From assembly GCF_003001955.1 (NCBI RefSeq), contig NZ_PVNH01000010.1:62001-126000 (forward strand): 64,000 nucleotides of DNA, given 5' to 3'. Within the stretch, counting starts at the first letter, position 1; the number at the start of each line of letters is the position of its first letter. The position numbers and the translations under genes are program-made. Shown here one piece after another: positions 44,437 to 47,239 of this stretch. A model generated the notes under the pieces. It did not search any database. It had not been told where the DNA came from and saw only the letters and a list, made by a program, of their open reading frames with translations. This DNA is from Prauserella shujinwangii. Its GTDB lineage: Bacteria; Actinomycetota; Actinomycetes; Mycobacteriales; Pseudonocardiaceae.

Positions 44437-45450
44437 TCAGTCGCGGGATCGTCCCTCGAGCGCTCCCGCGAGGGCCGCGGCGATGAGGGCGACCGCCCGG
44501 TCGTCGTCGTGGGCCAGCTGCCGCAGGGCGTCCTGGGCCAGTGCCGTCGGCATCTCGACGAGTGCCTGGGTCAGGCGTATCCGCACCGCGGAGTCCGCGG
44601 GGTGCGCGGCGAGCTCGCCGGCGAGTGCGTTCATGATCCGTTCCGCGCGCTCGGGGTCCCGGGACAGCTCGCCCAGGACCTCGGCCGCCTCGACGTCGTT
44701 CACCCCCTCGACCACCATCTCGACGAGTGCCGGCTCGGCCGCGGTCACGCCACGCCTGCCCACTGCGAGCGCGGCATGCCTGCGGACTGTCGGGTCGGAG
44801 TCGCCGAGTGCGTCCCCGAGCACCGCGGTCGCCTCGTCACCGGGCAGCTCGGCGATCGCCAGGACCGCACGCCGCCGGATGTCGACGTCCTCCGCGTACA
44901 CCCCGGACGCCACGCTCGGCACACCGTCATCACCCGCCCGCGCGAGCGCCCACCGCAGGGCGCCCGCGACGTTCGGATCGGACTCGGCGAGGACCGCCCT
45001 GGCCAGCAGCTCGGTGGGAACCGGCACGTCCTCGGCCGGGGCCAGGAGGGCCTGCTGCCTGCGTGCGGCGCTGGGCGAGCCGAGCCCGTGCAGGAGCTCG
45101 ACGATGCGCAGCACGTCCGGCCAGCCGGAGGGCGCCGAGGCGTCGATCGTGCGGAGCCGCTCGAGCAGTTCCCGCTCCCGCTCCAGCCGGTCTTCGGTCC
45201 GCCGGATGAGGTCACCGACCAGTGTGGACGGCGCGAAGGCGGGGTCCCGCAGAGCGCGCCCGATCTGCCGCAGCGACAGTCCCAGGGACCGCAGACCTTC
45301 CACGTGGAAGATCCGCCGGACGTCCTCCGCCGAGTACTCGCGGTAGCCACCGACGGTGCGGCCCGTCGGTCGCACCAGCCCGAGGGAGTCGTAATGCCGG
45401 AGCATCCGGGCACTCACCCCGGAGCGGCGGGCCACCTCGCCGATCAGCAC
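44437..45450 (-). CDS. MerR family regulator with HEAT-repeat C terminus
   Basis: 337-residue fusion. Residues 1-70 are a MerR DNA-binding domain (MLIGEVARRSGVSARMLRHY, then GGYREYSAEDVRRI). A coiled linker follows (RRTEDRLERERELLERLRTI), and residues about 145-330 carry HEAT-like repeats (AEDVDIRRRAVLAIAEL, DPTVRRHAALAVGRRG). The GTG start overlaps the upstream HEAT-protein stop by 7 bases, so the two are translated together. The promoter has a classic MerR dyad. Ligand or partner is unknown, but interaction with the HEAT protein is plausible. Confidence 0.93.
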   Translation of the reverse strand: MLIGEVARRSGVSARMLRHYDSLGLVRPTGRTVGGYREYSAEDVRRIFHVEGLRSLGLSLRQIGRALRDPAFAPSTLVGDLIRRTEDRLERERELLERLRTIDASAPSGWPDVLRIVELLHGLGSPSAARRQQALLAPAEDVPVPTELLARAVLAESDPNVAGALRWALARAGDDGVPSVASGVYAEDVDIRRRAVLAIAELPGDEATAVLGDALGDSDPTVRRHAALAVGRRGVTAAEPALVEMVVEGVNDVEAAEVLGELSRDPERAERIMNALAGELAAHPADSAVRIRLTQALVEMPTALAQDALRQLAHDDDRAVALIAAALAGALEGRSRD

Positions 45451-46121
45451 CGTGTTCCCTTCGCGGTTTCCGGGCCGAGCGCGACGATCCGTTTCGCCTC
45501 GTCGACGGCCGCGTCGAAATCGGCGTCCGGGTCGCGGAGGAGGATCTCCGTGGCCCGGGCATGCGCACGCACCGCCGGGTCGTCACTGGCCAGTCCCGTC
45601 CGCAGAGCGGGCTCGCTCACGTCGCCGAGCGCGACCAGAGCCCGGCTGAGACTCCGTTGCAGATCCCGGTCCCCGCGACCGAGCTGCGCGGCCAGGTCCT
45701 CGGCCAGCTCCCGATTCTCGCCCTCGGGCACGAGCACGACGGCAGCCCGCCACGCGCTGCGCGCGACCTCGTCGTCGGCGTCATGCAGCAGCGACCGCGT
45801 GATCGCGGGCCACGCGCCGCGGTCTCCGATCTTGGACAGCGTGTGCAACGCCTGGCTTCGTGCCTGAGCGCGCTCGGAACGAAGCTCCTGGAGGAGTCTG
45901 GGCACCGTGGTCTCCGCCGGGAACCGGGTCAGCGCCCACGTGAGCATGTCGCGTACGAAGAAGTCCGGCTCGATCGCGCACCGCGCCACGAGTGCGTCGA
46001 CGAAGGCGGGGTCGGCTCGCGTGCCGATCGCCAGAGCCGCCTCGAGACGCGTCGACGAGCTTCCGGCGCGCAACGCGTCGCGCAGGCGGGTGTCCTGCGG
46101 GTTCTCGTGAGTCGGGTTGAT
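45444..46121 (-). CDS. HEAT-repeat protein, partner of MerR-HEAT regulator; probable ATC start
   Basis: 225-residue alpha-solenoid protein with HEAT-like units (RLEAALAIGTRADPAFVDAL, RDMLTWALTRFP, QARSQALHTLSKIGDRGAWP, DDEVARSAWRAAVVLVPEGE). AGGAGG (46129-46134) is followed after 7 bases by ATC at 46121, giving INPTHENPQD at the N terminus. The only canonical upstream start, GTG at 46157, lies inside the MerR-type promoter and upstream of the predicted transcript start. I therefore set the start at ATC, an inference. It is coupled to the MerR-HEAT gene. Confidence 0.85.
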   Translation of the reverse strand: MNPTHENPQDTRLRDALRAGSSSTRLEAALAIGTRADPAFVDALVARCAIEPDFFVRDMLTWALTRFPAETTVPRLLQELRSERAQARSQALHTLSKIGDRGAWPAITRSLLHDADDEVARSAWRAAVVLVPEGENRELAEDLAAQLGRGDRDLQRSLSRALVALGDVSEPALRTGLASDDPAVRAHARATEILLRDPDADFDAAVDEAKRIVALGPETAKGTRC

Positions 46122-46140
46122 GAGATCACCTCCTGCACGC

Positions 46141-46171
46141 AGTGAAGACCTTGGCACCGTGTCAATGTCAA
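46141..46171 (-). promoter_or_regulatory. MerR-type promoter with 23-bp dyad in a 19-base spacer
   Basis: On the minus strand TTGACA (46166-46171) and TTCACT (46141-46146) are 19 bases apart. A 23-base dyad GACATTGACAC-G-GTGCCAAGGTC (46147-46169; 2 of 11 arm mismatches) is centred between them. The long spacer with a centred dyad is diagnostic of MerR activation, here by the MerR-HEAT protein of the same operon. Confidence 0.8.
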
Positions 46172-46233: not shown

Positions 46234-46821
46234 TCAACCGGGGTCGCGCATCCGGACGCCGGGATGGTTGGCCCGGACGTTCCGGGCCGCGAGCTCGGCC
46301 GTCCTGGCGATCCGGCGCTGGCGCGTCTCCGGCCGTTTGGCGGCGGCGATCCATTCGAGGATGAGCCGCCTCGACGACGGCGGGAAGGCGTCGAAGTGCC
46401 TGCGGGCGGCGGCATCGCGGTCGAGCAGGGCGCCGAGGTCGGCGGGAACGGCCCCGGCCTCCGCGCCGGGCACGACCTCCCAGGTCCCGTTGGCCTTGGC
46501 CAGCTCCACCACGGCCTGCCCGGCTTCGGTCATCAGGCCGAGCTCGGCCATCCTCACCGCACGCTCCCGGTTCACCCGGCTCCAGCTGCTGCGCGGGGTG
46601 CGCGGGGAGAACCGCAGCTGCGAGCTGGTCGCGTCGCGCCTGCGGTGCAGGCCGTCGATCCAGCCGAAGCAGAGCGCGTGCTCGATCGCCTCGGGGTACC
46701 GCAGGCCCGGGGTGCCGCTGTTCTGGTGCCGCAGGACCAGCCAGACCTCCCGCTCGGTTGCCGAGTGGCGGGCGAGCCAGGCCCGCCACTCGGCAACCGA
46801 GTTCGCAACCAGGACGTTCAT
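46234..46821 (-). CDS. YdeI/OmpD-associated (bacteriocin-protection-like) family protein
   Basis: 195-residue protein: AEWRAWLARHSATEREVWLV, GLRYPEAIEHALCFGWIDGL, WSRVNRERAVRMAELGLMTE, and a C-terminal Lys/Arg-rich R-x-x-R-I-A-R segment. The family is widespread with no defined biochemical role. The ATG is one base after the VOC gene stop on the same strand. Codons about 7-23 are encoded by a perfect inverted repeat with 21-base arms, which could form a hairpin in the message near the start. Confidence 0.9.
   Translation of the reverse strand: MNVLVANSVAEWRAWLARHSATEREVWLVLRHQNSGTPGLRYPEAIEHALCFGWIDGLHRRRDATSSQLRFSPRTPRSSWSRVNRERAVRMAELGLMTEAGQAVVELAKANGTWEVVPGAEAGAVPADLGALLDRDAAARRHFDAFPPSSRRLILEWIAAAKRPETRQRRIARTAELAARNVRANHPGVRMRDPG
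46753..46801. repeat. Perfect 21-bp-arm inverted repeat inside the YdeI-like gene
   Basis: Arms at 46753-46773 and 46781-46801 (beginning CTCGGTTGCCGAGTGGCGGG) match exactly around a 7-base loop GAGCCAG. It lies about 20-70 bases downstream of the start codon in the coding sense. Confidence 0.9.
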
Positions 46822-46822
46822 C

Positions 46823-47239
46823 TCAGATTCCCCGGTTCGAGGCGAGCACGTCCAGGTAGTGGGCGTTGTACATGACACCGAGGATGTTGCCGAACGGGTC
46901 GACCACCGAGGCGGTGACGAACCCCGGTCCGCGCTCGACGGGCTTCTCGTGCACGGTGGCGCCCAGGTCGAGCAACCGCCGGAAAGCGGCGTCGACGTCG
47001 TCCACGGCCCAGTAGACGATCGCGCCCGCCGCCTGCTCCGGCCGGGCGTGCGGGGCGAACCGGCTGTCGACGAGGCCGAGCTCGTGCTGGTAGTCGCCGA
47101 TCCGGAACTCGAGGTAGGCGGGCGGGCCTTCGACCGGGCGGGCGAAGTACGGCTCGGCTCCGAGCAGGTCGATGTACCAGGCGCGGGCGGCCGCGATGTC
47201 GTCGGCGACGTAGACGACGGTGGTGAGTCCTCGCAACAT
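46823..47239 (-). CDS. VOC family protein
   Basis: 138-residue glyoxalase-fold protein: TTVVYVADDIAAARAWYIDL, PAYLEFRIGDYQHELGLVDS, and VVDPFGNILGVMYN at the end. It is first in a two-gene operon with the YdeI-like gene and divergent from a WYL regulator across a perfect operator. Function unknown. Confidence 0.93.
   Translation of the reverse strand: MLRGLTTVVYVADDIAAARAWYIDLLGAEPYFARPVEGPPAYLEFRIGDYQHELGLVDSRFAPHARPEQAAGAIVYWAVDDVDAAFRRLLDLGATVHEKPVERGPGFVTASVVDPFGNILGVMYNAHYLDVLASNRGI

Follow-up and report, generated by a model that had tools for sequence, protein, structure and literature searches.

The HEAT-repeat protein gene at this locus raises the question of where its translation begins. 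The gene lies on the minus strand of the window, the 64,000-nucleotide stretch of a Prauserella shujinwangii contig (NZ_PVNH01000010.1) that was analysed, and the codon at the proper distance from its strong Shine-Dalgarno (SD) sequence is ATC. The original prediction took this ATC for the start codon. Comparison with orthologous loci makes it highly probable that translation of the HEAT gene begins at AUC 46121, a reading that the comparison supports and does not prove.

The HEAT-MerR operon and its orthologues

Counted from the ATC, the HEAT gene (45444–46121, minus strand; stop codon TGA 45446–45444) encodes 225 amino acids and matches PF13646 with an E value of 5.4e-14 and 52.7 bits, well above the curated cut-off of 27.7. 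The next gene (44437–45450, minus strand) encodes a MerR regulator with C-terminal HEAT repeats (PF13411 E 2.9e-15; PF13646 E 5.4e-13), the N-terminal HTH of which scores 56.6 bits against a cut-off of 21.6 and 54 bits against 28.2 (PF13411/PF00376). Its GTG start overlaps the HEAT stop codon by 7 bases. A match between the HEAT protein and the HEAT part of the MerR protein reached an E value of only 0.005, too weak to call the two paralogous, and a PDB search, in which the HEAT part resembled alphaRep designs, provided no functional clue. Upstream on the same strand lie genes for a YdeI/OmpD-associated protein (46234–46821; PF13376) and a glyoxalase-like protein (46823–47239; PF00903).

Within the same family, 127 of 390 genomes contain the HEAT protein at an E value of 0.001, a few of these being only distant HEAT matches. 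At 1e-40 the count is 97 of 397 genomes for the order, 77 of 394 for the class and 14 of 396 for the phylum. Genus g65 of the same order has it in 81 of 128 genomes, and the sole other genome of the window's own genus is without the gene. From named genomes (Amycolatopsis, Kutzneria, Nocardia, Micromonospora, Streptomyces, Frankia and others) 80 loci were retained. Removal of duplicates gave 357 distinct loci, a sample that leaves out about 30 weaker or contig-cut matches from the family, order, class and g65 searches. Scoring required a recognisable promoter and SD, namely a GGAGG-like SD with TTGAC upstream; 338 loci were scored on these terms and 19 were not. A canonical codon was favoured if present at 5–11 bases, a bias that runs against ATC, although one locus (L082) was scored as ATC despite an ATG two codons further on. 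Three loci have no usable codon (L139, in which the frame is shifted, L224 and L372), and these are contained in the canonical class of the taxon tallies. The tree, with 328 tips, was calculated with FastTree from the HEAT protein minus its start region. In 335 of the 338 scored loci the merR-HEAT gene comes next, with the 7-base overlap in 169; overlap of any length occurs in 108 of 122 non-canonical loci versus 98 of 213 others, kinship being ignored. Genes of the HEAT-MerR type also occur on large replicons of Streptomyces, Embleya and Nocardia, with 22 matching records in the plasmid collection.

Promoter, leader and transcription start

The minus strand reads TTGACA, 19 bases, TTCACT, GCGTGC, AGGAGGTGATC, TC and ATC, and every position given in the original prediction proved correct. 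The −35 element TTGACA (46166–46171) and the −10 element TTCACT (46141–46146) flank a spacer within the 19–20 bases of a MerR-type promoter, and a predicted operator of this type, a dyad of 23 bases (GACATTGACACGGTGCCAAGGTC, 46147–46169), is centred between them. The dyad, already named in the original prediction, is real but imperfect: 9 of 11 positions pair, a score equalled in 10 of 5000 shuffled versions of the 31 bases, and the family consensus GACCTTGACACTGTGACAAGGTC pairs 10 of 11. A sigma-70 scan with spacers of 16–18 bases gave no match at the promoter, and an exact-seed repeat finder returned no arm pair there, as expected because the spacer is 19 bases long and the dyad is imperfect. 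The window contains a single copy of the 31-base promoter, against 0 expected. Across the 6.1 Mb genome GGAGGTGRTYNNATC likewise has one match, at the HEAT locus, and its reversed pattern has 0. Among the 338 scored orthologues, TTGAC is present in all (partly a condition of scoring), TTCACT in 206, and the spacer to the best −10 element is 19 bases in 328. The arrangement TTGACN-N19-TTCACT, the centred dyad and the adjoining merR gene are shared with known MerR-type promoters, from which the HEAT operon differs in that its regulator bears a C-terminal HEAT solenoid.

The extended SD AGGAGGTGATC (46124–46134, with AGGAGG at 46134–46129) lies downstream of the MerR-type promoter and stops 2 bases short of the ATC (46121–46119), leaving 7 bases between AGGAGG and ATC. 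An extended SD at proper spacing is a trait of genes of the infC/sigR kind. The calculated duplex energy with an assumed 16S tail sequence is −20.6 kcal/mol for the window; the medians are −19.6 kcal/mol for the ATC set and −20.35 for the ATG set.

The transcript would begin at about 46134, the A of AGGAGG and the seventh base past the −10 element. The evidence comes by analogy from ten of the 19 unscored loci, in which the promoter is retained, the SD is gone and an ATG lies 6 bases (L073, L160, L193, L215, L218, L222, L226 and L344) or 7 bases (L230 and L253) past the −10 element. These ten orthologues appear to be leaderless, the first eight with their ATG beginning at the base that corresponds to 46134, and therefore mark the position of +1, in agreement with the proposal that the message opens at AGGAGG. 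Every scored ATC locus has GGAGG, as the scoring itself demanded, and an ATC start lacking an SD was seen in none of the 19 unscored loci.

The aligned start codon and its alternatives

At the aligned start position the 338 scored loci have ATG in 174, ATC in 118, GTG in 34, ATT in 4, GTC in 3 and TTG in 2, with the remaining 3 unusable. The position is conserved and carries codons other than ATG, GTG and TTG (118 ATC, 4 ATT and 3 GTC), as in infC and sigR; 25 of 45 coded genera have such codons. On the 328 tips of the tree, which is a rough one, ATC and canonical codons are separated by at least 36 parsimony changes, whereas 200 shuffles gave a mean of 96 and a minimum of 83; 12 independent ATC/canonical pairs fall on supported branches. 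Because of these changes and pairs, the position behaves as a start codon would, exchanging ATC with ATG, GTG or TTG many times and non-randomly. The alignment of orthologue starts, which had been suggested as a check, supports ATC at 46121–46119. The original prediction regarded ATC starts as very rare; in this family the ATC is no isolated case but widespread. The GTC loci (L030, L084 and L135, plus the unscored L261) resemble sigR, and the ATT loci (L196, L301, L304 and L309) resemble infC. L139 (G343:C1:2996000-2998100) has ATC at spacing 8 and a HEAT frame that is off by one base downstream, due to a frameshift or a sequence error.

The alternative that survives best, and which we nonetheless consider unlikely, is that in most ATC orthologues translation starts at an in-frame GTG inside AGGAGGTG, at about +6 of the message, so that ATC is a plain isoleucine codon and the window carries either an exceptional or a damaged copy. 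The SD-internal triplet is indeed in frame in 114 of the 118 ATC loci (GTG in 113 and GGG in L082), because the usual spacing is 8, and for the same reason it is in frame in most ATG loci too. It is out of frame in 4 of 118 ATC loci versus 27 of 210 canonical loci (p 0.005, kinship ignored) and, within the window's own family, in 1 of 49 versus 10 of 60; a sign test across the 12 pairs on supported branches had too little power to relate codon type to spacing. The synonymous share among differences in the three upstream triplets is 0.51 in the ATC set versus 0.29 in the canonical set, and 0.33 versus 0.21 in the own family, but the order is reversed in genus g11 (0.15 versus 0.21). These more codon-like triplets either speak against initiation at AUC or reflect pairing of the SD (R-T-Y). 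ATA and CTG are absent from the aligned position, and the codon set therefore resembles isoleucine codon usage; the exchanges there are of the I/M/V/L type. Moreover, the base lost in L315 sits within a C run, and a plasmid record of Streptomyces sp. NBC_01187 annotates the SD-internal GTG as the HEAT start.

Against this stands first the reading frame. In four ATC loci the SD-internal GTG lies outside the HEAT frame: the window (46127–46129; spacing 7), L120 (spacing 9), L315 (7) and L059 (7). As the start of the window gene it is excluded. The predicted leader from +1 to the ATC has no in-frame canonical codon in the window, L120 and L315, and hence no canonical alternative near the SD, in contrast to the 113 loci with an in-frame GTG; L059 has another in-frame GTG at about predicted −2 to +1. 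The triplet that follows the SD-internal GTG is GTC in 66 loci, GTT in 24, ATC in 15, GTA in 6, ATT in 2 and AGC in 1. GTG is thus used in 0 of 96 GTN triplets, although it accounts for 777 of 1977 valine codons in the same ORFs (Fisher 1e-20, kinship ignored), an avoidance that fits pairing with the 16S tail and not translation. The stretch from GTG to ATC has no codon-length indel in the 114 spacing-8 loci, whereas the length from ATC to the first conserved helix varies in 31 of 118. A GTG that overlaps the SD is, furthermore, unable to use that SD, and a like arrangement in Streptomyces sigR was refuted by experiment, as described in PMC5472188. The frame bias and the synonymous excess would both follow if leader and spacing were tuned more tightly to serve a weak codon; they would also follow if some relatives used the GTG part of the time.

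A start further upstream on a longer transcript is very improbable. The window frame is open up to 46529 and includes GTG 46157, TTG 46205 and ATG 46415. The GTG (46157–46155) lies in the promoter spacer between the −35 and −10 elements, as the original prediction had it, though it is not the only canonical in-frame upstream codon as claimed there: TTG 46205–46203 and ATG 46415 precede the promoter. The conserved promoter sits between these candidates and the ATC, L120 has an in-frame TGA within the promoter region, and search matches of other relatives contain stops upstream. The 18 residues preceding the ATC are unconserved, and most matches start at residue 17–20.

An equally slight chance attaches to a start at TTG 46073–46071 (codon 17), the first in-frame canonical codon downstream, with the ATC region untranslated. 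This codon is canonical, but no SD is visible before the TTG, residues from the ATC onward match those of relatives, many alignments starting at residue 18, and the strong SD would lack a purpose. Finally, a sequencing error or a decayed gene has next to no probability, for although the window is represented by a single genome and its congener is without the gene, ATC recurs in 118 of 338 scored orthologues and the ORF and operon are intact. A miscall of base 46119, for which resequencing had been proposed, is ruled out in practice by the same recurrence. An AUC start at 46121 accordingly has the look of a control feature that has been retained, and not of an error in sequencing.

Relation to known non-canonical starts and proposed control

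In Streptomyces, the annotated sigR start was an in-frame GTG in AGGAGGTG, and stop-codon insertions together with Edman data placed the start at GTC, according to PMC5472188. The same paper reports that IF3 represses sigR, that Streptomyces infC starts at ATC, that sigR and infC were both misannotated, and that the sigR GTC (GTT in 2 of 34) is confined to Streptomyces. The HEAT genes as a group share with sigR the AGGAGGTG sequence with its in-frame internal GTG, a non-canonical start at the usual spacing of 8, the place as first gene of a regulatory operon overlapping the second gene, and misannotation to the SD-internal GTG. They differ in that sigR belongs to a sigma factor/anti-sigma pair and its GTC start was shown by experiment, while the HEAT start is proposed from sequence. 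They also have mostly ATC, which spans several families and alternates with ATG.

The infC gene starts with ATT in E. coli. In the genome studied here it has an AUC start downstream of GGAGG, as the HEAT gene does (AAGGAGGCCCC-ATC; L435, G000:C7, near 375.3 kb), and a motif search placed 19 of 26 infC loci of relatives, with ATC in 17, ATT in 1 and GTG in 1 (L423, with a weaker SD). Unlike the HEAT gene, infC encodes IF3 itself, and its GGAGG-ATC spacing is 4, compared with 7. Conserved AUA or AUU starts with extended SDs are described for Staphylococcus aureus ccpN (AUA), cvfC1 (AUU) and infC in PMC13009471, which reports that in poor medium reporter output falls roughly tenfold, to about 10% of the AUG level. 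The likeness to ccpN and cvfC1 lies in a conserved non-canonical start with an extended SD in a regulator gene; the genes, codons and phylum are different. The open-licence literature yielded no description of the start of a HEAT-MerR operon, although one may exist elsewhere. The HEAT gene is very likely a further member of the small infC/sigR/ccpN kind, in which it is unusual in its breadth and in its repeated codon switching.

The sequences show the anatomy, its conservation, the exchange of start codons and the reading frame; the favoured course of events beyond that is an inference. Transcription from the MerR-type promoter would start at about 46134, probably under the control of the operon's own MerR-HEAT protein, which would amount to autoregulation. 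The message would open with the SD, and an SD-antiSD duplex of up to 11 bases would hold the 30S subunit, allowing the initiator tRNA to accept AUC and initiate with fMet despite the third-base mismatch. By analogy to infC and sigR, initiation would be weak and open to rejection by IF3. There would then presumably be little HEAT protein compared with the co-transcribed MerR-HEAT protein, itself probably translated from the overlapping start with its own weak RBS. Because the two proteins are co-transcribed and share repeats, one may guess that the HEAT protein serves the MerR-HEAT protein as a solenoid partner or acts as its antagonist.

Documented bacterial genes that start with a codon other than ATG, GTG or TTG are few, and such starts are overlooked by annotation pipelines; at least one public record places the HEAT start inside the SD. 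In that record (NZ_CP108583.1, Streptomyces sp. NBC_01187; L410) the annotated start is GTG 1492–1494 within AGGAGGTG, 9 bases before the ATC. The AUC-bearing relatives, about a third of the orthologues, are spread across soil actinobacteria. Tentatively, and at less than even odds, the AUC could be a conserved element of translational control through which the MerR-HEAT circuit is coupled to the fidelity of initiation. The HEAT partner would be scarce and would rise as IF3 activity falls, infC and the operon would respond together, and lineages would toggle the control by a single-base change between ATC and ATG. The family, in which AUC occurs 118 times and has switched with AUG on at least a dozen supported occasions, offers a natural series for asking why AUC is kept, whether IF3 governs it and how SD length compensates for a weak codon.
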